Assembly: GCF_030529325.1 (NCBI RefSeq)
Contig: NZ_JAUMXC010000006.1
Coordinates: 1 to 64,000, forward strand
DNA length: 64,000 nucleotides
Origin: Porphyromonas sp.
GTDB taxonomy: Bacteria; Bacteroidota; Bacteroidia; Bacteroidales; Porphyromonadaceae
Direction of reading: 5' to 3'
Part shown: positions 2,155 to 41,655 of the stretch, piece by piece
Layout of the letters: the number at the start of each line of letters is the position of its first letter
How positions within the stretch are numbered: position 1 is the stretch's first letter
Notes under the pieces: model-generated
What the model saw: only the letters and a program-made list of their open reading frames with translations
What the model was told of the DNA's origin: nothing
Database searches by the model: none
Translations under genes and position numbers: made by a program

Positions 2155-3354
2155 ATGCACAAGTTAGAATTTGAACTCAAACAACACACTCCCATCATCC
2201 ACTTCCAAGCAACGGATGATGGAGCAACTTTACGAGCTTCGGAAGTCAAGCCAAAACTGGATAGGTTTCTATTGAGAGCATATGAAAAAAAAATACCTCA
2301 ATCGACAATCAAAAATGGAACAGAAAAAGGACATCATCCGAGCCTGGACTTCAAAATAAAGTTCATTCCTCACAATACAAAACGGATAAGTGCTGATCGT
2401 ACGCCAATGTATTTTGGCAATCTAAAGTCAAAGAAGCCCAAACAGTTAATCTTTTCCGATAACGGAGTACGTATGATTATCTTGGTAAAAGATGAGACTC
2501 TAAAGAAACTTATTGAAGAAAACATGGCAAGGTTCTTCCTCCTTCATAATTTTGGATCTCGACAATCTAAAGGCTATGGTTCATTCACAATAAAAGATGA
2601 GAAAATCTCAAACATCAGGAGTCTCTACAAATACTCTTTTGATATTAAGACAACTGATTACAATAATGTCCTAAAGAGCATAAATTACTTTTACAAAAGT
2701 CTCAGAAGTGGAATAAATGAGTATCGTTCTAGTAAAGATAAAAAGTTGGTCTCTCTCCTCTATTTTAAGTCGGCTTTTCATTATTACGCCACGACCCATA
2801 AAGGAAAGCAATGGGATAAAAGAAGTATCAAGCAACACTTCTTCCCAGAACAACTGAAAAAAGAAGAGCAAATCCATAAGATCAATGATATCAACCGTGA
2901 TGACGAAAAGTATGATTTTAGGGATTTACTTGGACTATCGACAAACGAAACTTGGAAACAATTCAATATCAGCAAGACTTGCAGGGGTAAAGACGGCAAG
3001 GAAATAAATCGTCTAAAGTCACCAATTCAATTTAAGCCCATTTTTATCGGAGACAAATGCGTCGTCTTCTTTGATGTATTTACCGAAGATACAGGGTTTG
3101 AAGAATTCTTGGGTAGCAAGGTGTTTGTGAATGCATTCAAAAAAGAGAAAGGGGAAGACTCCCTCAAGGAACCTTCAAAGCCTATCAAAGAACCATTAGA
3201 AATGATTGTTCCGCGTGATATTAAACTAAACGACATTCTCGACTATATATTTTCAAATATCGATGTAGAGAAAAGAATTGCTCCCATAAAAACGGAAGAA
3301 GGGAAAAAAATATTTGAAGATATAAAACGTATTTATACGAGTCTAAAAAAATGA
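2155..3354 (+). CDS. cmr1: Cmr1, type III-B RAMP subunit (Cas7 group)
   Basis: RAMP-fold subunit that caps the 3' end of the crRNA in the Cmr complex and helps capture target RNA. The 399-residue protein opens with the TPIIHFQ segment and an early LRASEVKPKLDRFL stretch, which takes the place of the usual Cmr1 GSSLRG-type RAMP motif in Bacteroidota. A Gly-rich loop (GSRQSKGYGSF) occurs near residue 135. Length is normal for Cmr1. Its last 4 bases overlap the cas10 start, so the two are translationally coupled. Family assignment rests on these motifs and on the cmr gene order. Confidence 0.85.
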   Translation: MHKLEFELKQHTPIIHFQATDDGATLRASEVKPKLDRFLLRAYEKKIPQSTIKNGTEKGHHPSLDFKIKFIPHNTKRISADRTPMYFGNLKSKKPKQLIFSDNGVRMIILVKDETLKKLIEENMARFFLLHNFGSRQSKGYGSFTIKDEKISNIRSLYKYSFDIKTTDYNNVLKSINYFYKSLRSGINEYRSSKDKKLVSLLYFKSAFHYYATTHKGKQWDKRSIKQHFFPEQLKKEEQIHKINDINRDDEKYDFRDLLGLSTNETWKQFNISKTCRGKDGKEINRLKSPIQFKPIFIGDKCVVFFDVFTEDTGFEEFLGSKVFVNAFKKEKGEDSLKEPSKPIKEPLEMIVPRDIKLNDILDYIFSNIDVEKRIAPIKTEEGKKIFEDIKRIYTSLKK

Positions 3355-4889
3355 GTACGAATACCTACACAGCTGTAACAATCGGACCGATATACAAGAC
3401 TATTGAAAAGGCGCGTAGCGTGAAAGCCTTTTGGACTGCGAGCTATATGTTTTCGTGGATAATGAAGAGACTTCTGGAGGAGTATCCCCATAGAGACTTG
3501 ATTATATCGCCTTGTCTTCCACAGGACGACGATTCTTTCAGAGGTCTAAAACACAAAGTGGGGCTATTCCCTGATAGACTTTTTATAGCAGGGGATGCTA
3601 AAGCCGACATCGAAAAGATTAAGGAAAAGGTCTTAATAGAGTTAGCGGAAGAGTTTAAGAACACTTTGGTAACTAAAGCAAACAGAGAAAGAAAACTTGT
3701 AGACTTTCAGGATTACTTAAAAAATTATATCTCCATCTCCACGATTACCCTAAAAGGCCTCGACTCCGGTGTCTTAAAAACGCTCAACGAGTACTTGGAC
3801 ACACAAGAACTTTTCAGCAAAAGTTCTCCTCAGAGCAAGGATTACATGGAAAAGTTTATTGAGGATCACGAAATTTATTTTTTGAAAGATTTCAGGGAGG
3901 AAGGAGAATCAAGAGCCTTTGAGAGCACCTCGGAGATAGCTGTTTCGGGGTGGCTTAGTAAAAAGGAGATTGAAGGGATCCTGAATAATAAAAGTGAAAT
4001 TGACTACACAAAACTGACGCACAAAGAAGGTTATCGCAACTGCTACAAATACTTAGCCATCATAAATGCTGATGGAGACAATTTTGGTAAGTACATCAAA
4101 AAGCTTTCGAATCGGGAAGAAATGCAAGACTTTGCTCAGTTGTTTTTTGACTTCTCCGTCAATGTAACCAAAAAGCTAATGGATAAGACCAAGGCAGTTC
4201 CGGTCTACATCGGAGGAGATGACCTAAAGCTCTTTACTCCAATATTGGAAGGCGAGTCGGAGAAAGACATCTTCAGGCTCATCGATATCATAGACGAATG
4301 CTTCCGAGAATTTTGGGAAAAACTCCAAACCAGTGAGAAGTTGTCGATGTCATACGGAGTAAGCATCTTCTACCACAAAAGCCCTATGTCTGAAGCTCTC
4401 AAGGTGGCTGATGATATGAAGGAAAAGGCCAAAAGTGCTAAAGGCAAAGATGCCGTGGCGATATCCATCCAAAAACACAGTGGCCAAAAGATAGAGTTTC
4501 GGCTCCCTTGCAAGCACTCTACCTCTGTTCCTGCGGATCAAGAGCCTACTACCCTATATGCAGAGGCTTGTGAGCTCATAAAGGCATTCAAAGGAGATGT
4601 ACCTATGATCAACAGCCTCATCTATTGGATTGAGGAGATGTATGAGGTCATCTTCACCGATAGTGTGGTGAAGGATGAAAGACGTATAAAAGCTGTCTTT
4701 GACAACTTTTTCGATGAGAGCACACATAAGGAGCATCATGAGGAAGACAGATTTTTCGATAGGCTTCAAAAGTTCATCTACAAGATGTACAACGATAAAG
4801 ATGCACCCCAAGGGCTAAAGGAAAAGAAGGCGCTTTTACATGGCATCCTGCGCTACTGTCAGTTTGTAACCGCTAAAGATGAGAAATAA
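3351..4889 (+). CDS. cmr2: Cas10/Cmr2 without HD domain, GGDD polymerase
   Basis: Large subunit of the Cmr complex. On target RNA binding, its Palm domains make a nucleotide second messenger. The GGDD catalytic motif is intact at residues 288-291 (nt 4212-4223), and the upstream Palm strand NADGDNFGKY is at about residue 240. The protein begins directly with the first Palm region (AFWTASYMFSWIMKRLLEEY), and there is no N-terminal HD nuclease. This explains its 512 residues against roughly 800-1000 in HD-containing Cmr2. It should therefore signal but not cut DNA itself. Together with the CorA-like effector, SAM-AMP is the likely product; that is inference. Confidence 0.9.
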   Translation: MSTNTYTAVTIGPIYKTIEKARSVKAFWTASYMFSWIMKRLLEEYPHRDLIISPCLPQDDDSFRGLKHKVGLFPDRLFIAGDAKADIEKIKEKVLIELAEEFKNTLVTKANRERKLVDFQDYLKNYISISTITLKGLDSGVLKTLNEYLDTQELFSKSSPQSKDYMEKFIEDHEIYFLKDFREEGESRAFESTSEIAVSGWLSKKEIEGILNNKSEIDYTKLTHKEGYRNCYKYLAIINADGDNFGKYIKKLSNREEMQDFAQLFFDFSVNVTKKLMDKTKAVPVYIGGDDLKLFTPILEGESEKDIFRLIDIIDECFREFWEKLQTSEKLSMSYGVSIFYHKSPMSEALKVADDMKEKAKSAKGKDAVAISIQKHSGQKIEFRLPCKHSTSVPADQEPTTLYAEACELIKAFKGDVPMINSLIYWIEEMYEVIFTDSVVKDERRIKAVFDNFFDESTHKEHHEEDRFFDRLQKFIYKMYNDKDAPQGLKEKKALLHGILRYCQFVTAKDEK

Positions 4890-4890
4890 T

Positions 4891-6084
4891 ATGCCGACCT
4901 ATCTCGTTAGACTCACACCGATAGACAAGTTTTTCTTCGGGCAAAAGAAGACCTTTGGCAACGATAATGCCAATTACTTTGTTCACTCTTCATACTTCCC
5001 ACAGCAGACGACATTATTGGGGTTGCTGAGGTATCAGTTGCTACAAATAGCGGGGAATAATGTCTTCAAGGACAATAAGATTGCAAAGCCAAGGCTCGCA
5101 GAGCAAGAGATCGGCTCGCAGAGCTTTACTCCCTTTGCCACTGAGAGATTGAGATTCGGTAAGATTGAGTCAATATCTCCTGTCTTCATCATAGACAGGG
5201 CTACCGGAGAGCGTTTTATTCCCATGGGAAAACGATACAAAGAAAAAGAAGAAGAAAAGACTTCTTACGAGCTACTCTCACTATCCTGCGAAGAGGGGTG
5301 TCCACCAATTCTTGAGAAGTATGATGCGAAAGTTAAGCTTAAATCTTGCTGGGTATCATTAGAGAAAGGTACAATAATCCCTGAGGAAAAATTTTTCACA
5401 CCTGACGAACGCACAGGAATCCGAAAGGATTATGAAGGTTCGACTCAAGATGACTCTTTCTTCCGTCAGACATTCTATAAATTCAATAAGTTTATTGATG
5501 AAGGAGAAGATAAGAACCCCCATAGTGATCCACATGACTTCTACTTTGCGACTCTATTGGAGACCAACAGCGAGATCAAATTCCCTGCTTTAGACAAACG
5601 CATAGTATACCTTGGTGGCGAACGACAACCTTTCGTGATGGAAGTCTCGGAGGAATCTTTCGATTTATCGAAAGCTGCTCCACCTTCTACAAGTGATAAG
5701 CAACACTATACCGTAGTCCTGCTGTCGGATGCATTGATCAAGCCGGAGCAGGTCTCTAAAGCTACTTTTGGCATCACAACGTTGAAAGACTTTGCATGTC
5801 TCCTCACCAACATAGACACGAAGAAGTATTACAACATGACAAAAAACCGTGCCTCAAAACCAAGAACATCAGAGGATGTCATAGCAGAAAAGAAGCAAAA
5901 CGAATGTGAGCCAGAAGTTGCCCTGAGTTACGAACAAGAACTATATGCAGCCGGATCGGTCTTCTATTTCAAATGCGAGCAAGAAGCGGAAGATTTCCGC
6001 GAAGCTCTCAAAAGCAACATCAACTTCCATACCATCGGTTACAATCATGCCATAGTCATCGACCCATTACAACCTGAAAAATAA
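4891..6084 (+). CDS. cmr3: Cmr3, crRNA 5'-handle-binding subunit (Cas5 group)
   Basis: RAMP subunit that with Cas10 grips the crRNA 5' handle. The opening MPTYLVRLTPIDKFFFG is characteristic of Cmr3, and a TLLGLLRYQLL stretch follows at about residue 40. ATG 4891 is preferred because it lies 1 bp after the cas10 stop and starts at the conserved beginning; an in-frame ATG at 4879 would overlap cas10 by 11 bases. At 398 residues it is of usual size. An 11-bp gap separates it from cmr4. Confidence 0.85.
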   Translation: MPTYLVRLTPIDKFFFGQKKTFGNDNANYFVHSSYFPQQTTLLGLLRYQLLQIAGNNVFKDNKIAKPRLAEQEIGSQSFTPFATERLRFGKIESISPVFIIDRATGERFIPMGKRYKEKEEEKTSYELLSLSCEEGCPPILEKYDAKVKLKSCWVSLEKGTIIPEEKFFTPDERTGIRKDYEGSTQDDSFFRQTFYKFNKFIDEGEDKNPHSDPHDFYFATLLETNSEIKFPALDKRIVYLGGERQPFVMEVSEESFDLSKAAPPSTSDKQHYTVVLLSDALIKPEQVSKATFGITTLKDFACLLTNIDTKKYYNMTKNRASKPRTSEDVIAEKKQNECEPEVALSYEQELYAAGSVFYFKCEQEAEDFREALKSNINFHTIGYNHAIVIDPLQPEK

Positions 6085-6095
6085 ACCTATAACAT

Positions 6096-6767
6096 ATGAA
6101 AACAGCTATTTATACCATCAGATGCCTTACCAACATGCATGTCGGCAAGGGTGATGCTACCTACGAAGTCGTAGATAATTGTGTCCAACGGGATGTAACG
6201 ACAGGCTTTCCCTGCATCTATTCTTCAAGTCTGAAAGGAGCTCTGAGACAATACTTCAGCAGTAAGAAATTTCCTCACATAAGACACGTCTTTGGAAGTG
6301 ATGCCAATAACAAAGACCTGTCTCACAGTGTAGGACACTTCACCTTTTTCCAAGCCAACCTGATCGGCTATCCTGTTCGTACTGAAGGTGGAAACGAAAC
6401 ATATATACTCAGGACAAATAATAAACTAATAAAGCCCATTGAAAATTTGGCTAAACTTCTTGGAGTAGAGGATCTCTTTAATCAGGCGAAGCCTAATTTG
6501 ACAGAAAATGAAAATCTCCTCGCTGAGCTCGAACAACTTCCGGTCATTGCCCGCAACAATTTGGATAACGGAGAGAGCCAAAACCTTTGGTACGAGGAAG
6601 TCATCCCTTCTGAGGCTCGATTTGTCTTCTTTGTATCTTACGACGATGAGGAGATATTTAAGGAGTTTGACAAGATACTCCAAGAAAGTCCGGTACAGAT
6701 AGGAGCGAATGGCTCGATCGGTTATGGTTTTTGTAAGATTGAGAACATAATAAAAATTCAGAAGTAG
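6096..6767 (+). CDS. cmr4: Cmr4, backbone and target-RNA-cutting subunit (Cas7)
   Basis: Repeating backbone subunit of Cmr; its loop aspartate cuts target RNA every 6 nt in characterised homologues. The N-terminal pattern HVGKGDATYEVVDNCVQRD, then TGFPCIYSSSLKGALR, matches the Cmr4 signature. Asp27 occupies the catalytic position (the D of VVD). The C-terminus ends with the RAMP glycine loop GANGSIGYGFCKI. It is 223 residues, shorter than many Cmr4 (about 280). The stop directly abuts the cmr5 start. Confidence 0.88.
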   Translation: MKTAIYTIRCLTNMHVGKGDATYEVVDNCVQRDVTTGFPCIYSSSLKGALRQYFSSKKFPHIRHVFGSDANNKDLSHSVGHFTFFQANLIGYPVRTEGGNETYILRTNNKLIKPIENLAKLLGVEDLFNQAKPNLTENENLLAELEQLPVIARNNLDNGESQNLWYEEVIPSEARFVFFVSYDDEEIFKEFDKILQESPVQIGANGSIGYGFCKIENIIKIQK

Positions 6768-7211
6768 ATGGACAAGAGGAAGATACAAGAGCTTATCCCG
6801 ATAGCAATGGATGCCATTGAAAGTGTCGGCATTGTAGATACTACTACAGCTTCATTCGAAAAAGTCCACAAAGGATACATCAATGCCCTTGGTCCCAACA
6901 TCGTGCAGTCAGGGCTACTACCCACTCTTATTTTCTACAATAAAGAAGAGCGTGAATTATGGCTCAAAGCCCTCTACTATATGGAGATGAAGCAAGAGGG
7001 CAGGGAGATGACAGATCCCGATTTCACAGCAATCATCAAACTCGCTATCGACGAAAAGGCCGGAGATCTAAAAACATTGGCAACTGGTCCCGAACATAAA
7101 ATGTGGGAGAAGAAGATACTTGAATACGCTGTGGCACTCAAGTTGGCACTTCGGACATTCACAGCAAAAGAGGCGAGCAAGGAAGATGAGAAAGGAGGGA
7201 AGGGACAATGA
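6768..7211 (+). CDS. cmr5: Cmr5, small helical subunit (Cas11)
   Basis: Small alpha-helical subunit that forms the minor filament of the Cmr complex alongside Cmr4. The 147-residue protein has the Cmr5 features of an early helix (AMDAIE), the GYINALGPNIVQSGLLPTL segment, and a conserved region linking oligomer and target contacts. It starts at the base after the cmr4 stop and overlaps cmr6 by 4 bases (ATGA). Position and size are typical of III-B operons. Confidence 0.85.
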   Translation: MDKRKIQELIPIAMDAIESVGIVDTTTASFEKVHKGYINALGPNIVQSGLLPTLIFYNKEERELWLKALYYMEMKQEGREMTDPDFTAIIKLAIDEKAGDLKTLATGPEHKMWEKKILEYAVALKLALRTFTAKEASKEDEKGGKGQ

Positions 7212-7957
7212 ATTTTGGTCACTGGTACTATCGGCGTTATTTCGACACGTTGAAGATCAATAAAAAAGGAGAAGTTGTCAACTTCTCTGAGTTCAACAAG
7301 GGATCTAATGATAAGCTCAAAAACATTAAGATTATCCCCAAGATGCCACAAGACGGCTTTGGGGAAGGGGTCATTCAGACCTTCAAGCTGAAAACCACTT
7401 ATCCCGGGCTGGTGTGTGGGATAGGTTATCATCACGAGATCAATAAGCCCAAAAGCGAAAAGGAAACAACAGACAAAGAAGACACCCCCGAAGTATACAA
7501 CCTCGGGATGTACTTTGACTACACCTCAGGACTTCCCGTCATTCCCGGATCTTCGATCAAAGGGATGCTATGCTCAGCCATTGTTGAGTGGAGCTTCTTG
7601 AAGGACAAGGGCATGGATGCAGATAAAGTAGATAAATTTGTCAGCACCGTCTTTAAGGGTGAAGGTTTGTCGATCTACGATAGGGACATCTTCCTCGATG
7701 CTGTCCCTGTCGGCACACCGTCTCAACTCCTCTTCGGAGAGGACTACATCACCCATCATCCCGCCCCACTGCAAAACCCCACCCCTGTCCGCTTCCTGAG
7801 GGTCAATCCCGGCGTGACCTATGAGTTTCGGTTTATCCTCAAAGACCACGCAAAGGAACCCTCTGCCAAGGAAAAGCTTGATCTTTTCAAAGAGATCATC
7901 CTCACCTTCGGTCTCGGTGCCAAGACCAATGTAGGGTACGGACAGTTTACCGAATGA
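7208..7957 (+). CDS. cmr6: Cmr6, RAMP subunit (Cas7 group)
   Basis: RAMP subunit near the 3' end of the crRNA in the Cmr complex. It contains the hallmark segment SGLPVIPGSSIKGML (about residues 110-124) and ends with the glycine loop LGAKTNVGYGQF. Its 249 residues are normal. The start overlaps the cmr5 stop by 4 bases. A strong terminator hairpin begins 17 bp after its stop and closes the effector operon. Confidence 0.88.
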   Translation: MNFGHWYYRRYFDTLKINKKGEVVNFSEFNKGSNDKLKNIKIIPKMPQDGFGEGVIQTFKLKTTYPGLVCGIGYHHEINKPKSEKETTDKEDTPEVYNLGMYFDYTSGLPVIPGSSIKGMLCSAIVEWSFLKDKGMDADKVDKFVSTVFKGEGLSIYDRDIFLDAVPVGTPSQLLFGEDYITHHPAPLQNPTPVRFLRVNPGVTYEFRFILKDHAKEPSAKEKLDLFKEIILTFGLGAKTNVGYGQFTE

Positions 7958-7973
7958 TAAATCTACGACACGA

Positions 7974-8014
7974 GGGTGTGTTCCAAAGTTCAACACTTTG
8001 GCACACCCTTTTTT
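7974..8014 (+). terminator. Terminator between cmr6 and cas6
   Basis: GGGTGTG at 7974-7980 pairs with CACACCC at 8002-8008, and the inner arms CCAAAG/CTTTGG extend the stem. Six T follow. It ends the cmr operon, so cas6 would need read-through or its own promoter. It also argues against the cas6 start at 7976, which lies inside the hairpin. Confidence 0.8.
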
Positions 8015-8026
8015 GTTATCATCTCT

Positions 8027-8836
8027 ATGTCAGCCGTTACGCCAGCATCCTTACCCTTATTTCTCCAAAAGTTTTCCGCCTATCATTTCAGAGTCCGGTT
8101 CGAAGCCCGTCAGGCTTTCACCTTTTCGGGCAAATGGTACTTCTTGCCACGCTATGCACTGGGCAATGCATTGAAAAACAGTTCGCGCTTCTCACACCTC
8201 TATGGCGAACTATTCAAGCCACACGAGACAGAAGACGGCACCAACTCCTCTTCGCGACTGATCATACGAGTAGACAAGCCTTCCCGACGAGGATTTTCAA
8301 GAGGAGAAGCCCTCGATATCTACATCACCATCATCTCCCAAGACCCTCAGCTTGTGGAGGACTTCCTTACCTTTTTGCCCGAGTGGCAGGCGTACAACTT
8401 CTTTAACGATCACAGCTTCATCTACCGTTCTTACCAACTCTTCAGCCCCGAAGCCTCACTCTACCGCAACGGATCGACTATCGATCAAGCACGCCTTACG
8501 ATCAACTTTTTTGTCCGCCAAGCCCCTCGTTGGCACGAACACCTCAGTCTGCGCTTCTTGACCCCTACGACGCTCAAGGTCGATCAAGTCCTCAAGCCCT
8601 CCCGAAGAGACGCCATGACACTACCTCTTAAGGCACATCATAAGGGCCCCAAAGGGTCAGAAAACAGCTGTTTGATTTTCGAAAAACATTTCCCCTCTCC
8701 TAAAAGCACTTTTCTCTATAAATCAACACATTATGAAAAACAAAAACGTCGACACTTTTTCGAAAATCATAGTCTAATGATAAGACCCCAACATATTTTC
8801 GAAGAAATGCCATCTTTAACAATTATAACACCCTGA
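8027..8836 (+). CDS. cas6: Cas6-like crRNA endonuclease, C-terminal domain lost
   Basis: Would process pre-crRNA by cutting repeats. The first ~190 residues look like a Cas6 of the PF10040 type, including LSLRFLTPTTLKVD (nt 8543-8584), which normally opens the C-terminal RAMP domain. About 15 residues later the similarity stops: the remaining ~70 codons have low-complexity, non-coding character, lack the glycine-rich loop and cross two of the leader palindromes. The catalytic C-terminal domain (~110 residues) therefore seems to be deleted. ATG 8027 is preferred; the frame extends to 7976 inside the terminator. Probably inactive, or dependent on another cas6 elsewhere. Confidence 0.6.
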   Translation: MSAVTPASLPLFLQKFSAYHFRVRFEARQAFTFSGKWYFLPRYALGNALKNSSRFSHLYGELFKPHETEDGTNSSSRLIIRVDKPSRRGFSRGEALDIYITIISQDPQLVEDFLTFLPEWQAYNFFNDHSFIYRSYQLFSPEASLYRNGSTIDQARLTINFFVRQAPRWHEHLSLRFLTPTTLKVDQVLKPSRRDAMTLPLKAHHKGPKGSENSCLIFEKHFPSPKSTFLYKSTHYEKQKRRHFFENHSLMIRPQHIFEEMPSLTIITP

Positions 8837-9008
8837 TTATCAGCAATGCCAAAGGGATATTTTTCGAAAATCGAAGAAAGATCATTTCTTAGCTTCTATT
8901 TTCGAAAAATCAAATTCTTTATATATCTTTGTTGCACAGGAGATTGAGAAGTAATATCTCATCCAAAATGTTCGTGTAAACACATTCTTGGACTATGATT
9001 TTCGAAAA
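8676..9008. repeat. Six dispersed TTTTCGAAAA palindromes in the CRISPR leader
   Basis: Perfect TTTTCGAAAA occurs at 8676-8685, 8757-8766, 8861-8870, 8899-8908 and 8999-9008, with one variant (TTTTCGAAGA) at 8797-8806. I see no perfect copy elsewhere in the window. The copy at 8899-8908 lies 15 bp upstream of the array promoter -7 element, where a -33 element would be expected. Regulator-binding sites or a leader signature are both possible. Confidence 0.7.
8924..8931 (+). promoter_or_regulatory. Probable CRISPR array promoter (-7 element)
   Basis: TATCTTTG matches TAnnTTTG. There is no TTG at the right distance; the position is taken by a TTTTCGAAAA palindrome. Transcription would start near 8937, giving about 140 nt of leader RNA before the first repeat at 9077. 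Confidence 0.55.
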
Positions 9009-9076
9009 AATAATCAGATCTGATTCTCAGTAAATTAGAAATGGTATAATCATTAAAACACTGATAATCAATCTCC

Positions 9077-9335
9077 ATCTATACATAATCAGTCAATAAG
9101 ACTATCAAGACTCCTCATACCAAGAGAGAAAGAGACGCTTCCCATAGTATCTATACATATTCAGTCAGTAAGACTATCAAGACGTAGAAACCTGAGCTCC
9201 TCCTTCAGTCCATTTCACAAACCTCCATCTATACATAATCAGTCAATAAGACTATCAAGACGAACCAACCACCCCTACCAAGTCGAAGTAGTAAGCTACC
9301 ATCTATATATGCTGTAAGACGATGAGAATCCGTTG
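9077..9335 (+). CRISPR. Mini CRISPR array, three repeats plus one decayed repeat
   Basis: 35-bp repeats lie at 9077-9111, 9149-9183 and 9227-9261. The first and third are identical; the second differs at two positions. A fourth, decayed copy starts in register at 9301, keeping its first 7 bases. Spacers are 9112-9148 (37 bp), 9184-9226 (43 bp) and 9262-9300 (39 bp). Each good repeat contains a short stem AGTC/GACT with a 5-nt loop, followed by exactly 8 nt, ATCAAGAC, as expected for a Cas6-type cut leaving an 8-nt 5' handle. Handle position and decayed last repeat both put the leader on the cas side, with transcription on the + strand. Confidence 0.85.
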
Positions 9336-9450
9336 TTTTTAATTTATTTTTTGTACTCTTGCAGAGTAGAGGAGTAAGTCCTCTCAGGTGGGATGTCCGA
9401 AAGGCATCGTGCCCCCGGGAAGATGAACATTCGTCTTCCCCTACTTTTTT
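9333..9450 (+). ncRNA. Small structured RNA downstream of the CRISPR array
   Basis: A promoter-like pair, TTG at 9333-9335 and TACTCTTG (one mismatch to TAnnTTTG) at 9354-9361 with 18 bp between, predicts a start near 9367. The RNA folds into GAGGA/TCCTC (9370-9384), then GATG-t-CC, a GAAA loop, and GGCATC (9402-9418 region), and ends in a terminator GGGAAGA/TCTTCCC with a T run (9417-9450). It contains no ORF. I do not recognise a family; it lacks the SRP, 6S, RNase P and tmRNA signatures. Length would be about 85 nt. Confidence 0.55.
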
Positions 9451-10037
9451 ATCCATGTACGTAGCCGATCGGTAAAGCTATTTAGGAAGTATATTAGGAG
9501 AAAAACAGAAAAATAATGGCACAAATGATCCCGAAAAATCCAGTAAGAGTCTTGGATTGCAGTTCCAAGGTCAAACTGCTGATTTTTTCGGGACTTTTTA
9601 TTTTGAGGGGATCTTCTGTGTATATGCGATCTGTCTTTAAGGGGCAGAACTTTGGAGTGACATTGTAGCGTTTATTTCCCATCGGCACATATTTCATGTA
9701 TGATGTTGATGGGATTTTTGTTTTCGGGATGTATCTGTCGAAGCAGAGGAGGTGAAAAATCTTGGTTGGATGAAAAAGGGGCAGGTAGACTTGAAGAAAA
9801 AAGGTTGTCTAACTTGATGCGACAAGTTAGACTGATGAATTCATGAAGTTAGACAACTTAATTTCGACCTTTCACTACCTTGATATCAAGAGGTGTTGCA
9901 GAGTGTCTTAATTTGTGTAAATTTGGAGGGTAAAAATGAACATGATAGGGGGAGTGTCTTGTGGAGGTCGGGGGAGAGTTCCGGCTTTGAGATGAACCTT
10001 GTATCGTATGTAAATCCAAATAATAATCGTTTGTATC
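9451..10037. other. Intergenic region with nested hairpin and palindromic element
   Basis: No credible gene. It contains a three-level nested hairpin at 9529-9593 (outer arms TCCCGAAAAATC and GATTTTTTCGGGA, inner CAGT/ACTG, innermost CTTGGA/TCCAAG) followed by a T-rich stretch, and the palindromic element at 9797-9873. The two short reading frames here have no family signature. Confidence 0.6.
9797..9873 (+). repeat. Hairpin-brick element, copy 1
   Basis: Starts with an A run and GGTTGTCTAACTTG, then the inverse unit with AGAC loop, then a third unit, and ends TTAATTTCGACCTTTC. Several bases of the middle unit have decayed. Same family as the copies near 16.6, 26.7, 32.0, 35.9, 42.6, 47.0, 56.3 and 62.0 kb. 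Confidence 0.8.
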
Positions 10038-11126
10038 ATGAAGAGATTTATCGTAATGGCAACAGTGTTGTTGATGCTGTTGTCTTGCCAAGAAAAGAGT
10101 CAACAACAAATCGAGGCCGGAGCGAAGTGGTTGGAGAGCCTGATCATCAATGCGGATGGTGAAGTGTGTGTCGACAGCACCGACGAAGAGCTGGTGATGA
10201 CTCCTCGTCTGAGGGAGTTTTTCAATGACGCACTTCGTATCTACGGACCATCGAACATGGATGAAAATGAGTTGAAGGCTGCGGAGCAGGCTTACAAGGA
10301 AAAGTGGAAAGACATCTATCCCATCAAGGAGGATGATCACAAACTTTTCGGGAAAGGAAACGGGGAGACCACCTCTCTCTATGACCTCAAGGTCACACAC
10401 AAGGAGGGATTGGTCTACAACGTGTACATCAGGTACGGCAGAGACTATGTCTACAACACGGAGGTAACACTCATACCTCATGAGGGAGCATTTCAGATAG
10501 ACTATGCTTCGGTCGAGTATAGCAGGGCTCCCGGTGGGGATCAGGAAGGTATCGAGCCTTACTGGTCACTCGAGGATAGAGAGGCGAGAAAAAGGAAGTT
10601 TGAAGAGATCTTCACCCAATCGGAAGAGGGGGAGATGACCTATGAGGGGGCTTTGTTGACAGAGTTGGCGGGATTTACCAATCCCGAAGAGGTGACAGAA
10701 AAGTGGGGAAAGCCTCTGTTTGAGTGCAAGATATCCTACCCCAAGGACAACTATTACTACACAACCTGTGGAATAACCCACTCTTCTTTCGTCACTTATG
10801 AGCCGTTTGAGGCTTCTTGGGTACACTTTGAGTACAATCCGGAGTATCAAGCCGACCCATCCTTGACATTATTTTCGACCAACAGAGAGGGCTTTGGCTT
10901 CGCCGGACTCTATGTAGGTGTACCCGAGTGCAACAAGGAGGCTGTGATAGAGTACCTCGGCAACTGGTTTGGTCCGGAGCTATTGTCTCTATATGACAAG
11001 GAGGAGCATAGGGATGAGATGCTCGTCGTCAGACTCAGCCAAGAACTTCCCATAGAGATGGTCATCGTTTTTTCGGAAGATGGGTTGATCAAGTCTATGG
11101 AGTACAGCCCCGGTACATGTATGTAA
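10038..11126 (+). CDS. Hypothetical lipoprotein
   Basis: A 362-residue exported protein. The N-terminus MKRFIVMATVLLMLLSC is a lipoprotein signal with lipobox LLSC (Cys17), so it is probably anchored in the envelope. The mature part is acidic and mixed alpha/beta, with an early helical region (FFNDALRIYG, about residue 60) and many Tyr-rich strands in the second half. I recognise no family with confidence. It stands alone between two intergenic regions and is followed by a terminator at 11201-11241. Confidence 0.75.
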   Translation: MKRFIVMATVLLMLLSCQEKSQQQIEAGAKWLESLIINADGEVCVDSTDEELVMTPRLREFFNDALRIYGPSNMDENELKAAEQAYKEKWKDIYPIKEDDHKLFGKGNGETTSLYDLKVTHKEGLVYNVYIRYGRDYVYNTEVTLIPHEGAFQIDYASVEYSRAPGGDQEGIEPYWSLEDREARKRKFEEIFTQSEEGEMTYEGALLTELAGFTNPEEVTEKWGKPLFECKISYPKDNYYYTTCGITHSSFVTYEPFEASWVHFEYNPEYQADPSLTLFSTNREGFGFAGLYVGVPECNKEAVIEYLGNWFGPELLSLYDKEEHRDEMLVVRLSQELPIEMVIVFSEDGLIKSMEYSPGTCM

Positions 11127-15823: not shown

Positions 15824-15852
15824 ATAATTGACTAAATATACAAACAGAACTT

Positions 15853-16460: not shown

Positions 16461-16789
16461 TGTATTCGGGAGGATGAGACTGATCATGGAAAGGGCTCGA
16501 AACAGAAGGTCTCGACTCTTGGAGAGAGATAATCAGGAAAGCAAAGCAGGTGATCGGACAAAGTAAAGAAAGGTCGAAATCAAGTTGTCTAACTTGTGAT
16601 CGCAAGTTAGACAACTTGATGAATCACCTTAGACGACTTTTTTGGGGCTGTCAGAGTCCGAAATTATTTGCTTTGACACGGACAAAAAAAAGGGAATCTG
16701 AGGAGGCGGTCTGGGCGGTAGCTTGTCCGAGCGATCCCCCCACCCTTTGAGGGGGCGTGGGAGAGGACACTTTTTATATCCCTCTGTGA
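16461..16789. other. Intergenic region upstream of dpp4
   Basis: No gene seen. It holds the palindromic element at 16569-16643 and a G/C-rich hairpin CCCCC/GGGGG at about 16737-16755, upstream of the dpp4 promoter. Confidence 0.6.
16569..16643 (-). repeat. Hairpin-brick element, copy 2
   Basis: Inverted relative to copy 1: it begins AAGGTCGAAATCAAG and ends GACGACTTTTTT. The central palindrome CAAGTTGTCTAACTTG, 6 nt, and the matching CAAGTTAGACAACTTG is almost perfect. Confidence 0.85.
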
Positions 16790-16840: not shown

Positions 16841-19009
16841 ATGAACAGTTTAAGATACCTTTTACTCTCTGCTCTACTGAGCAGTTCGGTGTGTGTTGCT
16901 CAGACGACCACGCCCAAGAGTCCTACTATCCAAGAGATTACGAGTGGAGTATTTGCAGCCAAAAGAGCAGGGAACGGATTTCGTTCGACTGCCGATGGCA
17001 AGCACTACACCATATTGAGTCAGGACCACAGTGCCATCGTGCGTTACTCGTATGAGACGGCAAAGGTCGTCGATACGCTCTTCAACTGCAAGACAGCTCG
17101 CGAATGCGACTTCAAAGACATCGAAGACTACCGCATCAGCGACAACGGTCATCACATCATCCTCCTCAGAGAGACAAAACCCATCTACCGCCGCAGTCGC
17201 AGCTATACAGCTTACCACTACGATGTGCGCCGCAATATGGTCAAGCCTCTCGCAACGACCGCAGGCAAGGTGCGCATCCCCACCCTTTCGCCCAATGGTC
17301 GTATGTGTGCCTACGTGATAGACAACGACATCTATATCAAGAAGTTTGACTACGACACAGAGGTTCGCGTGACGACAGATGGCAAGATGAATGCCATACT
17401 CAACGGTGTCACGGACTGGGTCTACGAGGAGGAATTGTACACCATCGGACTGATGGAGTGGAGCCCTGACGGAGCTTTCCTCGCTTTTGTACGTAGCGAT
17501 GAAAGCAAGGTCAAGACCTTCGACATGACAATCTTCGGCAGGGGCAACTACCCCTTCAACTACGTGTACAAGTACCCTAAGGCGGGAGAAAAAAACTCTG
17601 ACATATCGATCAAACTCTACAACGTAGACAATCGTGACACAAAGGACATCAAACTCCCTGAAAAAGAAGAGTTTTATATTCCTCGTATGGACTTCTGCAA
17701 CGAAGCCCTCTACGTCTTCACGCTCAACCGTCATCAGAGTATATTCAAGGTGTACAGCGTCAATCCCAAGAGCTTCGTAGCCAAGGTGTGGTTGCAAGAC
17801 AGGGACGAAAAGTACATCGACACCGAGTGGGTGAGACAGTTGACGTTTGACAACCGGGGAGCACTCTATGTCAATGAGTCGGACGGTACGGCACAGATCT
17901 ACAGATATGACAAAAACGGTACTCTCGCAGGCAAGGTCACCAAGGGAAAGAGCGATGTGGCTCACCTCTATGGTGTGACGGCTGCGGGCGAACTCATTTA
18001 CTCCCTCGCATCCCCTACTCCCGGCGACCGTGTCATCATCGCACAGGACAAAAAGGGTAAGCAGAGATACCTTTCGCCCAAGAGTGGTGTCAGCTCCGTT
18101 GTTTTCAGCAAAGACATGAGCTACTACCTCCTATCGCACTCATCGGCTACCGAAGTGCCAAGCTACAAGATATGCCGCACTCGTGATGCCAAGGAGGTCA
18201 AACTCCTCGAAGACAATAAGGACCTTAAGAGCACCCTTGGACGATACGATATACCTAAAAAGGAATTCATGATGCTCAAGACTGCCGAAGGCATAGACTT
18301 GTGCGCGTGGATGATCAAGCCTACCAACTTCGATCCCTCACGTCGTTATCCCGTCGTGATGACTCAGTACAGCGGTCCGGGCTCTCAAGAGGTGGAAAAC
18401 AAATACGAGACCGATTGGGTCGTAGCCATGGCACAAGAGGGCTTCATCGTCGTCTGTGTAGATGGTCGCGGTACGGGCTTCCGTGGCAGAGAGTTCAAGA
18501 AGGCTACTTATCTCAACCTCGGTATCCTCGAGAGTGACGATCAGATAGCGGCAGCCAAGGCTCTTGGCAAACTTCCATACATCGATGGCAACCGCATCGG
18601 TATCTTCGGCTGGAGCTTCGGTGGCTACAACGTGCTCATGTGTATGACTCGTGGCAATGGTACGTTCAAGGCCGGTGTATCTGTCGCTCCTCCTACAGAC
18701 TGGCGTCTCTACGACACCATCTACACGGAGAGATATATGCGTACACCCAACGAAAACCCAGAAGGCTACCGCCGGACCTCTGTCCTCACCCATGTCAAGG
18801 GACTTCAGGGCAAGCTCATGATCATCCAAGGCTCGGCCGATGACAACGTACATATGCAGAATACAATGCTCTTGACTGAAGCACTTGTCCAGGCAGACAA
18901 AGACTTTGATATGATGACCTACACCGACAAGGATCATGGCATACATGGAGGAAACTCTCGTAACCACCTTTTCCGCAAGGTTATAGGCTACTTCAAGACC
19001 AACCTATGA
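16841..19009 (+). CDS. dpp4: Dipeptidyl peptidase IV (S9B)
   Basis: Exported serine exopeptidase that removes X-Pro and X-Ala dipeptides from peptide N-termini, used in protein-based nutrition by oral Bacteroidota. The signal peptide MNSLRYLLLSALLSSSVCVAQ is followed by a beta-propeller (about residues 50-480) and a C-terminal alpha/beta hydrolase domain. The nucleophile is Ser592 in GWSFGGY, the Asp lies in GSADDNVH and the His in DKDHGIHG. Length 722, against 723 for P. gingivalis DPP IV. The last 4 bases overlap lipA. Confidence 0.95.
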   Translation: MNSLRYLLLSALLSSSVCVAQTTTPKSPTIQEITSGVFAAKRAGNGFRSTADGKHYTILSQDHSAIVRYSYETAKVVDTLFNCKTARECDFKDIEDYRISDNGHHIILLRETKPIYRRSRSYTAYHYDVRRNMVKPLATTAGKVRIPTLSPNGRMCAYVIDNDIYIKKFDYDTEVRVTTDGKMNAILNGVTDWVYEEELYTIGLMEWSPDGAFLAFVRSDESKVKTFDMTIFGRGNYPFNYVYKYPKAGEKNSDISIKLYNVDNRDTKDIKLPEKEEFYIPRMDFCNEALYVFTLNRHQSIFKVYSVNPKSFVAKVWLQDRDEKYIDTEWVRQLTFDNRGALYVNESDGTAQIYRYDKNGTLAGKVTKGKSDVAHLYGVTAAGELIYSLASPTPGDRVIIAQDKKGKQRYLSPKSGVSSVVFSKDMSYYLLSHSSATEVPSYKICRTRDAKEVKLLEDNKDLKSTLGRYDIPKKEFMMLKTAEGIDLCAWMIKPTNFDPSRRYPVVMTQYSGPGSQEVENKYETDWVVAMAQEGFIVVCVDGRGTGFRGREFKKATYLNLGILESDDQIAAAKALGKLPYIDGNRIGIFGWSFGGYNVLMCMTRGNGTFKAGVSVAPPTDWRLYDTIYTERYMRTPNENPEGYRRTSVLTHVKGLQGKLMIIQGSADDNVHMQNTMLLTEALVQADKDFDMMTYTDKDHGIHGGNSRNHLFRKVIGYFKTNL

Positions 19010-26110: not shown

Positions 26111-26116
26111 AAAGGT

Positions 26117-26147
26117 AGGAGAGACAAAGAGTCTCTCTTATTTTTTT
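26117..26147 (+). terminator. oxyR terminator
   Basis: A short stem AGGAGAGAC/GTCTCTCTT around AAAGA, followed by ATTTTTTT. Confidence 0.75.
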
Positions 26148-26156
26148 ATCTGTAAA

Positions 26157-26369
26157 TCAGTATCTCGGAGGCCTGCCATGATAACCATCCATGAAACCAT
26201 CTCTGGCATCTGACAAAAAAGCGGGAACCTTTCCATTCATTATGGATCTGACAATATCAGGCCCCTGATCAATCACTATATGTACTATAAAAGTTATCAA
26301 AATAGTGATCAGGACAGTCTTGATATTCCATCTTTGCGACGTAGTACTTGACAATTTTTTCTTACTCAT
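26157..26369 (-). CDS. Small membrane protein
   Basis: A 70-residue protein of unknown family. A basic N-terminus (MSKKKL...SQRWN) precedes one hydrophobic helix (about residues 17-36), and the C-terminal half ends GFMDGYHGRPPRY, an export-side acidic/aromatic tail. Convergent with oxyR across the terminator. The composition looks protein-like, but there is no promoter match and I cannot confirm expression. Confidence 0.5.
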   Translation of the reverse strand: MSKKKLSSTTSQRWNIKTVLITILITFIVHIVIDQGPDIVRSIMNGKVPAFLSDARDGFMDGYHGRPPRY

Positions 26370-26702
26370 AATTCTCTATTTTACCTTTCCGTATTTAGAT
26401 ACTGTATACATTTATTATTGAACGATATCTGATTCTGCACTCTGAAGCCTATTTTGACAACAGAGTATGGAGAAATAATTCGTAACAAAGTTAAATATTT
26501 TAACAGAAAAAGTTCCAAATCACACATACAAGTCCACCACTTCCGCATAAAAGTGTATAGAATACTAATAAAGTCCCTCATAAAAATGTAGAAAACGATG
26601 ATAAAGTCCCTCATAAAAGTTTGAATTAAGAAACAAAAGAATCTTAGTGAAATTATTCAGGTCTTCGGTGTGAACTCATATATCCAAAATAAGAAGAAGT
26701 AG
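26370..26702. other. AT-rich intergenic region with short tandem repeats
   Basis: No credible gene. Two near-identical AAGTCCCTCATAAAA copies at 26571 and 26604 (33-bp period) and a third weaker copy at about 26531 explain the reading frame seen on the minus strand, which I do not accept as a gene. Confidence 0.5.
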
Positions 26703-26780
26703 AAGGGTCGAAATTAAGTTGTCTAACTTGATGAATGAAGATGTCTAACTTGAAGTCTCAAGGTAGGCATCTTTTTTTTT
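26703..26780 (-). repeat. Hairpin-brick element, copy 3
   Basis: Inverted orientation: it starts GAAGGGTCGAAATTAAG, has two GTCT-loop units and a third unit of the GGTAGGC type, and ends in ten T. It directly abuts the DnaA-box cluster. Confidence 0.82.
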
Positions 26781-26789
26781 CGCACATGT

Positions 26790-27240
26790 ATATATGTGGA
26801 TAAGTAGGGATAAAACTGTGAATAGGTTGTGGAAAACTTGTGGAAAAATAAGTGTTAAAATATTTGGTATAATGAAGGCTCATTTGATATATAATCTTTG
26901 TTGATCTGACCAAAAAATAAGGGGAAAAGTTATCCAAAAGTTACTATCATAGTTATCCACATAAAAGATCCGGAAATTAACATTCAGTTAGCTCTTCACA
27001 GGATAAATTATGGTTATCCACAGTATGGATTATCTCTTTGTTTTAATGTAATATAGACTGTGGATAATGCTGTGGATGAATGTGGATAGACAATATGCTG
27101 CAAGAGCTAATGTATTTTGTCCACAATCTCTTTCCACAATACTCACAACTATTATCATCTTATATTTACGAGTTATTTTTTTTAGATCAACCCCTTTCTC
27201 CACAGCCTCCGAAAAGTAGTTACTACCATATAAATATAAA
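26790..27240. other. oriC: Candidate chromosomal replication origin (DnaA-box cluster)
   Basis: Four perfect DnaA boxes (TTATCCACA or its complement) at 26795-26803, 26953-26961, 27014-27022 and 27059-27067. Near-matches lie at 26817, 26828, 26839, 26930, 27071, 27081, 27117 and 27130. A gene-free AT-rich stretch (27140-27240) could be the unwinding element. A parS-like site lies 12.5 kb away. Against it, genes on both sides mostly point toward this region, the reverse of the usual bias, and dnaA is not in the window. DnaA-rich non-origin sites also exist. Confidence 0.6.
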
Positions 27241-27299
27241 GATGATGAAAAGTGTGGAAAAAGCTAAAGTAATTGTCCCTCAGACTACAAAATAATGGT

Positions 27300-27307
27300 T
27301 ACATTTG
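27300..27307 (+). promoter_or_regulatory. pta promoter -7 element
   Basis: TACATTTG. The nearest TTG (27273-27275) is 24 bp upstream, slightly beyond the usual spacing. Transcription from about 27313 excludes the upstream ATG 27295 and supports ATG 27343. Confidence 0.55.
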
Positions 27308-27342
27308 TGCAAGAATTCAATTTAACTTCCAATACATCATTT

Positions 27343-28350
27343 ATGAAACTACTTGAAGATATCATCAAGAGAGCTCAGAACAACCCTATGCGTATAGTGT
27401 TGCCTGAGGGTACAGAAGAGCGTACACTACAAGCTGCAGATCGTTTGCTTGCCAATAAAGTGGTCAAGGTCATCCTCATCGGTGATCCTGCTGAAATCAA
27501 GGCAAAGGCTGCAGATCTTGGCCTTAAGCACATCGAAGAGGCTACTCTGCTATGTCCTAAGACCAACGAAAAGAAGGATGTATATGCCAATCTCCTTTTC
27601 GAACTTCGTAAGAGCAAGGGTATGACTATCGAAGAGGCTACAAAGAAGGCTGAAGATCCTCTATACCTCGCTTGTCTCATGATCAAGAACGGTGATGCTG
27701 ATGGTGAAGTGGCAGGTGCACTCAATACCACGGGTAATGTCCTCCGTCCTGCACTCCAGATCGTCAAGACTGCTCCGGGCATGAAGTGTGTATCGGGTGC
27801 TTTCCTCATGATGGTAAAGGAAAAGGGTTATGGTGAGGATGGTCTTCTTATCTTCTCTGACTGTGCTGTGATACCTCAACCTACTGCAGAGGAGCTTGCA
27901 CAGATCGCTGTGGCTTCGGCTCAGACAGCTAAAGCCATCGGCGGTATCGAACCACGTGTGGCTATGCTCAGCTTCTCTACAAAGGGTAGTGCGGCTCATG
28001 AGTGTGTGGATAAGGTGGTCGAAGCTACTCGCATAGCTAAGGAAATGGCTCCTGAACTTGCCATAGATGGTGAACTCCAGGCAGATGCTGCTCTCGTAGA
28101 GTCTGTAGCTCGTCAAAAGGCTAAGGACAGTACCGTAGCGGGTAAGGCTAACGTCCTTGTGTTCCCTAACCTTGAAGTGGGAAACATCTCTTACAAACTC
28201 GTTCAACGCCTTGGTGGTGCTGAAGCTGTGGGTCCTATCCTCCAAGGTATGGCGGCTCCTATCAACGACCTCAGCCGTGGTTGCTCTGCTGATGACATCT
28301 ATTATATGGCTGCTGTCACAGCAAATCAGGCTATGGCAGCTAAGAAATAA
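27343..28350 (+). CDS. pta: Phosphate acetyltransferase
   Basis: Converts acetyl-CoA and phosphate to acetyl phosphate in the fermentative acetate pathway. The 335-residue single-domain form has the PTA signature ([17 protein letters not shown] near the start, then [20 protein letters not shown] and the C-terminal [19 protein letters not shown] segment). It starts at [12 protein letters not shown]. Followed after 43 bp by ackA in the standard operon order. Confidence 0.95.
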
Positions 28351-28393: not shown

Positions 28394-29593
28394 ATGAAGA
28401 TTCTTGTTTTGAACTGTGGTAGTTCCTCAGTTAAGTACAAGCTATACGAGATGCCTACAAAGGACGTATTGGCACAGGGTGTAGTAGAAAAATTGGGACT
28501 AAAAGACTCATTTCTCAAGATGACTTTGCCAAACGGTGAAAAGGTAGTACTTGAAAAAGAAATGCCTGAGCACACCAGCGCAGTAGAGTTCATCCTCGAA
28601 AATCTCACAAGCCCACAGTACGGTTGTATCAAGTCTTTCGACGAGATCAACGCCGTAGGTCACCGTCTCGTGCATGGTGGTGAAGCTTTCAAGGAAAGTG
28701 TCCTCATCACTGACGAAGTGATCGCTAAGGTCAATGAGTGTATCGACCTCGCTCCTCTACACAATCCACCCAACCTCAAGGGTATCGATGCTATCAAGAA
28801 GCTCCTCCCAACCATTCCACAGGTAGGTGTATTCGACACAGCATTCCAACAGTCTATGGAACCACACGCATTTATGTACGCTCTTCCATACCGTGTGTAT
28901 GAGAAGTATGGTGTACGCCGTTATGGTTTCCATGGTACCAGCCACAGATATGTGAGCAAGAGAGCTTGCGAGATCCTTGGTAAGGACTTCAATAACACTC
29001 GTATCATCACTTGCCATATCGGTAACGGTGCATCTATGAACGCTATCAAGAATGGTAAGGTTGTAGATACCACAATGGGTCTCACTCCTACCGAAGGTCT
29101 CATGATGGGTACTCGTTGCGGTGACGTCGATCCGGGAGCTTTGGCTTTCATCATGGGTAAGGAAAACCTCAACGTAGAAGGCTTCAGCAATCTTATCAAC
29201 AAGGAATCAGGTGTATTTGGTGTATCAGGTATCTCATCGGATATGCGTGACATCGAAAACGCTATCGAAGCGGGTAACGAGCGTGCTAAGCTCGCTATGG
29301 ACATGTACAACCACCGTATCAAGAAGTATGTGGGTTCGTTCATGGCTGAACTTGGCGGTTGCGACATCATCATCTTTACAGGTGGTGTGGGCGAAAACCA
29401 AACTTCTACCCGTGAGATCGTATGTGCAGACATGGAGTACTGCGGTATAGAGCTCGATACAGAACTCAACGCTAAGACTCGAGGTAAGGAGATCGTCATC
29501 TCAAAGCCTTCAAGTAAGGTAACAGTGATGATCGTTCCTACCGATGAAGAGTTGATGATAGCTACAGATACACTCGCTCTCGCAGGTAAGTAA
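28394..29593 (+). CDS. ackA: Acetate kinase
   Basis: Makes ATP and acetate from acetyl phosphate. It has the ASKHA fold with the N-terminal LNCGSSSVKYKLYE phosphate loop, RLVHGGE, and the conserved RYGFHGTSHRYVS and FTGGVGEN segments. The 399 residues are full length. With pta it forms the substrate-level phosphorylation route, ending at the terminator at 29621-29662. Confidence 0.97.
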   Translation: MKILVLNCGSSSVKYKLYEMPTKDVLAQGVVEKLGLKDSFLKMTLPNGEKVVLEKEMPEHTSAVEFILENLTSPQYGCIKSFDEINAVGHRLVHGGEAFKESVLITDEVIAKVNECIDLAPLHNPPNLKGIDAIKKLLPTIPQVGVFDTAFQQSMEPHAFMYALPYRVYEKYGVRRYGFHGTSHRYVSKRACEILGKDFNNTRIITCHIGNGASMNAIKNGKVVDTTMGLTPTEGLMMGTRCGDVDPGALAFIMGKENLNVEGFSNLINKESGVFGVSGISSDMRDIENAIEAGNERAKLAMDMYNHRIKKYVGSFMAELGGCDIIIFTGGVGENQTSTREIVCADMEYCGIELDTELNAKTRGKEIVISKPSSKVTVMIVPTDEELMIATDTLALAGK

Positions 29594-39750: not shown

Positions 39751-39766
39751 TGTTCCACGTGGAACG
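39751..39766. promoter_or_regulatory. parS: parS-like ParB-binding palindrome
   Basis: TGTTCCACGTGGAACG contains the perfect 14-bp palindrome GTTCCACGTGGAAC and matches the bacterial parS sequence TGTTCCACGTGGAACA at 15 of 16 positions. It fills most of the 23-bp gap between mnmG and uvrC. parS sites normally cluster near oriC; the candidate origin is 12.5 kb away. Confidence 0.8.
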
Positions 39767-39771
39767 ATGTC

Positions 39772-41655
39772 TTATCGACCTATAAGGACAAGCAGGATAT
39801 TGATGTCACTTGGAGATATCCCCGGTATACGAGCGGCCTGACCGATGGTTTCGGGGTCTATCTTCTTTAGTTTTTGTCTCGCTTCGGTCGATAGAGATCT
39901 GATGTTATCGTAGTCAAAATGTCCTCGTATCTTTATATGTTCCAGTCTTTTAGCTTTTTCTGCGAGTTCTTTTTCCCTATCGATGTAGCCTTTGTATTTC
40001 ATAGCTATCTCTGCCGACTCCACGATCTCTTCTCTTCTGTCTTCCGGCAGTGCGCTGATCGCATTTGCAAGGGTAGGGATTATCGTTGCCAGGCTATTGA
40101 GCGAAAGGGTCGGGCGCAACACAAGGTCCACAAGTTTGCAGCCATGACGCAATGTTGTCGTGCCGTTGTCGATGAGGAACTGATCCACCTCTGACGGGGA
40201 TACCGAAGTGTTGTGGCAGAGGCGAATGATGTCCTCCACGGATTGCTCTTTGTCTCTCAATAGTGACACACGCTCACCCGAGCAAGCTCCGATGTTGTAT
40301 GCCAGTGGTGTGAGTCGCGCATCTGCGTTGTCTTGTCGAAGCAGTATGCGGTATTCCGCACGGCTCGTAAACATACGGTAAGGTTCATCCACACCCTTTG
40401 TCACGAGGTCATCTATGAGGACACCTATGTATGCCTCATCTCTGTGCAGTACAAACTCCTCCGAAGGACTATGTACCGACAAGTGCGCATTGATACCTGC
40501 CACGATACCTTGCCCCGCAGCCTCCTCATAGCCTGTTGTGCCATTGATCTGCCCTGCAAAGAACAGTCGCTTCACAAGCATCGTCTCGAGGGTGTGCTTG
40601 AGTTGGGTAGGGGGGAAGAAGTCGTACTCTATCGCATATCCCGGTCTCAATATGTGTGCATCCTTGAGGGCCGGTATGGCACGTATGGCAGCATCCTGCA
40701 CCTCATAAGGTAGTGAGGACGAAAAACCGTTGATGTAATACTCCGTCGTATGCTCTCCTTCGGGCTCGAGGAAGAGCTGATGACGCTCTTTCTCTGCAAA
40801 CGTCGTGATCTTGGTCTCTATACTCGGGCAATATCTCGGTCCTATACTCTGTATCTGTCCGTTGTAGAGGGGCGAGTCATCGAGGCTGTCTGCAAGTATC
40901 TTGTGTACTTCGGGGTTGGTGTAAGTGATGTGACAAGGACGCTGTATGAGTTGCTTGTTGGACACTCCCGGCAGGAACGAAAACTTGCGGAAGTCTTCGT
41001 CTCCGTGCTGTACATCACATAGGTCGAAGTGTATTGTGCGGGCATCGACACGCATCGGTGTCCCCGTCTTCATGCGATCGGACTCAAATCCCAGAGAACG
41101 CAACTGCTCGGTCAGACCGAACGAAGCCGGCTCGGAGATACGTCCTCCCGAAAACTGCAACTTCCCCACGTGCATCAAGCCGTTGAGGAACGTCCCATTG
41201 GTCAGTACCACGGCACGTGCCATGAACTCCACGCCCATGAACGTACGTACCCCTCTCACCTCGCCATCATGGATGATCACCCGGCTCACCGTGTCCTGCC
41301 ACACGGACAGGTTTTCGGTCTGCTCCACTATCTGCCTCCATGCTTCGCTGAATCTCTGTCGGTCGCTCTGTGCACGAGGGCTCCACATCGCAGGACCCTT
41401 GCTCCTGTTGAGCATCCTGAACTGTATGGCTGTCTTGTCCGATACCACACCCATGTGTCCGCCCAGCGCATCTATCTCGCGGACGATCTGCCCCTTTGCT
41501 ATCCCACCTACGGCAGGGTTGCAACTCATCTGAGCTATCTTGTTCGTATCCATTGTGATAAGCAAGGTCTTTGACCCCAGGCGAGCCGCAGCAGTGGCTG
41601 CCTCACAGCCTGCATGACCGGCTCCTACCACAATGATATCGTAGTTCACTCTCAT
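39772..41655 (-). CDS. mnmG: tRNA uridine-5-carboxymethylaminomethyl modification enzyme MnmG
   Basis: FAD-dependent partner of MnmE that modifies wobble uridine 34. The N-terminal dinucleotide-binding motif VVGAGHAGCEAA, the SCNPAVGGIAKG region, GLMHVGKLQFSGGR and RAEYRILLRQDNADARLT are all typical. The 627 residues are full length. First gene of the run to deoC. Confidence 0.97.
   Translation of the reverse strand: MRVNYDIIVVGAGHAGCEAATAAARLGSKTLLITMDTNKIAQMSCNPAVGGIAKGQIVREIDALGGHMGVVSDKTAIQFRMLNRSKGPAMWSPRAQSDRQRFSEAWRQIVEQTENLSVWQDTVSRVIIHDGEVRGVRTFMGVEFMARAVVLTNGTFLNGLMHVGKLQFSGGRISEPASFGLTEQLRSLGFESDRMKTGTPMRVDARTIHFDLCDVQHGDEDFRKFSFLPGVSNKQLIQRPCHITYTNPEVHKILADSLDDSPLYNGQIQSIGPRYCPSIETKITTFAEKERHQLFLEPEGEHTTEYYINGFSSSLPYEVQDAAIRAIPALKDAHILRPGYAIEYDFFPPTQLKHTLETMLVKRLFFAGQINGTTGYEEAAGQGIVAGINAHLSVHSPSEEFVLHRDEAYIGVLIDDLVTKGVDEPYRMFTSRAEYRILLRQDNADARLTPLAYNIGACSGERVSLLRDKEQSVEDIIRLCHNTSVSPSEVDQFLIDNGTTTLRHGCKLVDLVLRPTLSLNSLATIIPTLANAISALPEDRREEIVESAEIAMKYKGYIDREKELAEKAKRLEHIKIRGHFDYDNIRSLSTEARQKLKKIDPETIGQAARIPGISPSDINILLVLIGR

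Follow-up and report, generated by a model that had tools for sequence, protein, structure and literature searches.

A cluster of DnaA boxes in the gap upstream of pta almost certainly represents the chromosomal replication origin (oriC) of this Porphyromonadaceae bacterium, as judged from the sequence of the 64,000-nucleotide stretch analysed here (the window), from the assembly that contains it (G000) and from related genomes. The assignment is based on the enrichment of boxes, the uniqueness of the cluster in the genome, an orthologous cluster at which the GC skew flips in a close relative (G011), a single parS site, the direction of rRNA transcription and the agreement of two further members of the family (G023 and G008). 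The last four of these bear out the first-pass annotation, in which the cluster had been proposed as a candidate oriC, and the sequence evidence supports the location of the origin well. The features of the region are listed in Table 1.

Table 1. Features of the putative oriC region and its surroundings (window coordinates).
Feature	Position	Strand	Remarks
AT-rich intergenic region holding the putative oriC	26111..27294		LysR-type regulator gene on one side, pta on the other
33-bp repeat array (CCTCATAAAARTGT...)	26543..26622	+	About three copies; left flank of the cluster
DnaA-box cluster, putative oriC core	26795..27261		467 bp; 4 perfect and 8 one-mismatch boxes
Left box array	26795..26847	-	Boxes at 26795, 26805, 26817, 26828 and 26839; spacing 10-12 bp, helical register
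Central boxes TTATCCAAA and TTATCCACA	26930..26961	+	21-bp run from 26925 identical in G011
Right-centre boxes	27014..27089		27014 (+) and 27059 (-) perfect; 27071 (-), 27081 (-)
Boxes TTGTCCACA and CTTTCCACA	27117..27138	+	CTTTCCACA with two mismatches
Candidate unwinding element	27148..27190		CTATTATCATC (identical in G011) directly follows the boxes; AT-rich tract behind it, including a T8 run
Final DnaA box TTTTCCACA	27253..27261	-	Inside a 25-bp run from 27244, identical in G011
pta, phosphate acetyltransferase	27295..28350	+	Adjoins the putative oriC here and in G011
ackA, acetate kinase	28394..29593	+	Pfam Acetate_kinase
parS	39751..39766	+	TGTTCCACGTGGAACG, one mismatch; between uvrC and gidA/mnmG; 12.5 kb from the cluster
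gidA/mnmG	39772..41655	-	Pfam GIDA, E 5.6e-160

The DnaA-box cluster

A scan of the window identified four perfect copies of the DnaA box TTATCCACA, at 26795 (-), 26953 (+), 27014 (+) and 27059 (-), and eight boxes with one mismatch, at 26828 (-), 26839 (-), 26930 (+), 27071 (-), 27081 (-), 27117 (+), 27196 (+) and 27253 (-). These numbers agree with the four perfect boxes and about eight near-matches previously described. The boxes extend over slightly more than the 350 bp given with them, and the last of them is beyond the end given for the feature. In the left array, the boxes at 26805 and 26817 carry two mismatches each.

The number of boxes expected by chance was estimated with a second-order Markov simulation (505 bp, 3000 runs). 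The 12 observed boxes with at most one mismatch compare with a simulated mean of 0.11-0.17 and a maximum of 3 in the 3000 runs, and the four perfect boxes with a simulated 0.002-0.006; the enrichment over the simulation is approximately 70-100-fold. The cluster is thus intergenic and well above chance, as is expected of a DnaA-dependent oriC. The genome-wide count of boxes that had been suggested as a check gave 31 perfect copies across the 2.18-Mb G000 assembly and singled out the same site: no second cluster of perfect boxes was found in this assembly, and no other three lie within 500 bp.

The surrounding gap is 1.2 kb in length with a GC content of 32.6%, compared with 46.8% for the 64-kb window, and no gene-sized ORF was found within it, in line with the adjacent AT-rich, gene-free region noted earlier. 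An Rfam search of the window gave no match. The gene that borders the gap on the right is presumably pta, a name that we take from its own sequence and from its place before the acetate kinase gene.

Conservation and GC skew in a single-contig relative

The assembly that contains the window is split into 93 contigs, and the genome-wide skew was therefore judged on G011, which of the relatives assembled in a single contig is the closest (2,404,857 bp; a member of the same genus, with 95% identity in Pta). G011 has an orthologous cluster beside pta at 1745151-1745634 (78% identity). Segments of 40, 25 and 21 bp that cover boxes are identical in the two genomes; the longest starts at 26828, in the left array of the window. 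The G011 cluster holds nine boxes in 400 bp, compared with at most three in the sampled 20-kb stretches elsewhere.

For the skew analysis, 39% of the G011 genome was sampled in stretches. The two sides differ in mean GC skew in this sample, approximately +0.038 against -0.031, and the best switch points lie at 1.74-1.77 Mb and at about 0.62 Mb, roughly opposite each other. Over the contiguous 80 kb that surround the cluster the cumulative skew reaches its minimum at 1745041, 110 bp from the cluster, and the GC skew turns there from negative to positive. The GC-skew check put forward in the first-pass annotation, as run on G011, therefore places the minimum expected of an oriC on the orthologous cluster and not elsewhere.

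The window's own cumulative minimum lies instead at 9.3 kb, to the left of the cluster. At fourfold sites the switch fits best at 11.3 kb, and one at 25.2 kb scores 4.7 log units worse; skew within the window alone gives no precise origin position. Collinearity with G011 is lost to the left and to the right of the cluster: the block with gidA has been inverted, and that at 16.8-24.3 kb has switched sides. The latter lies to the left of the cluster in the window and maps, in the same direction, to 1.777-1.786 Mb in G011, to the right of the putative origin. A recent rearrangement relative to G011 is likely to account for the position of the window's skew minimum and switch to the left of the cluster.

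A rearranged neighbourhood would also suit a plasmid or mobile element that had integrated here with its own origin, and DnaA boxes occur at plasmid origins too. Such a source is nevertheless extremely improbable for this cluster: its neighbours are housekeeping genes (pta, ackA, tpi, gidA and uvrC), G011 has kept it, and the skew of the whole chromosome switches where it lies.

parS, dnaA and gene orientation

The gidA (mnmG) gene is a classical origin-linked gene. The parS-like site beside it, which had been reported at a distance of 12.5 kb from the boxes, was recovered, and its perfect 14-bp core, GTTCCACGTGGAAC, occurs as a single copy in the G000 genome. The core is single in G011 too, 11 kb from the cluster and adjoining gidA. 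One perfect parS core is thus present in the origin region, as expected of a DnaA-dependent oriC. The rRNA operons, which are expected to be transcribed away from an origin, follow the same pattern in G011, where four of the five (16S genes) are co-directional with forks leaving the cluster and one is head-on.

Box clusters by themselves are no proof of an origin, and the window's own skew switch does not fall exactly at the cluster. The boxes could accordingly titrate DnaA or act in regulation, like datA or DARS of Escherichia coli, with the real origin elsewhere. We consider this very unlikely, given that the skew in G011 flips on the orthologous cluster, that a unique parS lies nearby and that G000 holds no other cluster of perfect boxes.

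In many other phyla dnaA lies next to the box cluster; this arrangement is found in neither G000 nor G011. The gene is on another contig (C26) in G000, and in G011 it is at position 328 of the record, approximately 660 kb from the cluster on the assumption of a circular record. On genome maps of Porphyromonas gingivalis the origin is customarily placed at dnaA (PMC5771137), and records, that of G011 included, start at this gene by convention. An origin at dnaA nonetheless has next to no probability here: neither G011 nor G023 shows a skew switch near position 1, contig C26 carries no perfect box and oriC is commonly far from dnaA in Bacteroidetes (PMC4755523). An oriC upstream of pta would fix the replication origin for a lineage related to oral pathogens, and its true position matters wherever growth rates are estimated from read depth or strand bias is studied.

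Most ORFs in the window point towards the cluster (39 of 57; 40.6 of 52.4 kb). The first-pass annotation had described this correctly and had taken it as an objection to an origin at this site. The objection falls because genes in G011 show no strand bias, with 295 of those sampled following the fork and 314 opposing it (48% co-directional). In this lineage the direction of genes holds no information on the origin and is useless as a means of finding origins.

Predicted initiation mechanism and known origins

By analogy with established DnaA-dependent origins, DnaA, made elsewhere on the chromosome, would bind the boxes, and the spacing of 10-12 bp in the left array would allow it to bind there in helical register. 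The duplex would then open beside the right-hand boxes, at CTATTATCATC and the T-rich tract of the candidate unwinding element (27148-27190). After opening, helicase would be loaded and two forks would leave in opposite directions, while ParB bound to parS, 12.5 kb away, would partition the duplicated origin.

The candidate unwinding element contains only two clean DnaA-trios (motif rule from PMC8287927), and a plain pattern search found no DnaA-trio run beside any box. Three trios are thought to be necessary in the basal unwinding system of Bacillus subtilis (PMC8287927, PMC6669920). The G011 counterpart of the CTTTCCACA box belongs to an abutting tandem pair, CTATCCACA-ATATCCACA, directly before the CTATTATCATC motif, which resembles this system. 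Since two clean trios are present and not three, we offer the likeness to basal unwinding as a tentative suggestion.

As in the oriC of E. coli and of B. subtilis, clustered TTATCCACA boxes lie beside AT-rich DNA. The gidA gene is close to oriC in E. coli and parS is near the origin in B. subtilis, both as in the window. Unlike these two origins, the one proposed here is flanked by pta and a LysR-type gene, dnaA is not adjacent and the search gave no clear DnaA-trio run. The arrangement is already known, namely an ordinary DnaA-driven origin away from dnaA, and is usual for the phylum, as oriC in Bacteroidetes has been reported to lie commonly at a distance from dnaA (PMC4755523). In Prevotella intermedia OMA14, which belongs to a different genus and family, the oriC predicted for the first chromosome likewise combines multiple DnaA boxes with a GC-skew transition and lies far from dnaA (PMC4755523); the likeness concerns these features.

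Other members of the family

The cluster upstream of pta is absent from 28 further loci checked among the relatives, G011 being the sole one of those checked to carry it, and a DNA search of 12 genomes of the genus matched G011 alone beyond the window's own genome. In G023 (Porphyromonas) six one-mismatch boxes start at 2176842; they lie upstream of recO, with gidA 15 kb away. The skew minimum is at 2176677 (contiguous 80 kb) and the genome-wide fit is at 2.18 Mb. The inferred origin of G023 is like that of the window in combining a box cluster at the skew minimum with gidA at this distance, and unlike it in lying upstream of recO without a perfect box; the likeness is one of arrangement. In G008 a cluster at 18699 lies upstream of metK, 13 kb from gidA, with the skew minimum at 18288 (40 kb read), and in G001 a weaker cluster lies 17 kb from gidA, with the skew minimum 11 kb away. 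No clear cluster at the skew minimum was found in the gidA flanks of eight members (G014, G024, G028, G002, G006, G009, G012 and G016), and on this evidence the link between oriC and gidA is therefore not universal. It is possible, if on balance doubtful, that in at least part of the Porphyromonadaceae the origin stays approximately 9-17 kb from gidA while its immediate neighbours vary by species, and that the 33-bp array is a lineage-specific origin element, for example in unwinding or the control of initiation.

The G023 site at 2176842 (position 15843 of locus L189) is likely to be the true origin of this P. gingivalis-like genome, approximately 180 kb from the start of the record. In G028 a cluster with two perfect boxes (1904902-1905171; locus L212) lies directly upstream of dnaA and may reflect either dnaA autoregulation or an origin.

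Flanking and dispersed repeats

The 33-bp repeats on the left flank of the cluster are the sole feature without an explanation. The tandem array is conserved in G011 with 3.7 copies (locus L002, 710-831), and near-exact copies of the repeat are rare in the rest of the genome.

The gap at 8836-10038, near the window's own skew minimum, was considered as an origin and rejected; every box there has at least two mismatches, and the gap holds CRISPR-like repeats. These form a short array at 9070-9261 (three 42-nt repeat copies, spacing 72-78 nt), following type III-B (Cmr) CRISPR genes at 2155-8836 that encode Cmr2/Cas10, Cmr3 and RAMP proteins.

A dispersed repeat, GTCGAAATTAAGTTGTCTAACTT, occurs in the window at 9846-9868, 16573-16595 and 26707-26729 and at about 30 further sites in G000, with 33 copies at no more than three mismatches compared with 0 for the reversed control. 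The copy to the left of the putative oriC forms part of a hairpin with a T run behind it (fold z -3.25).
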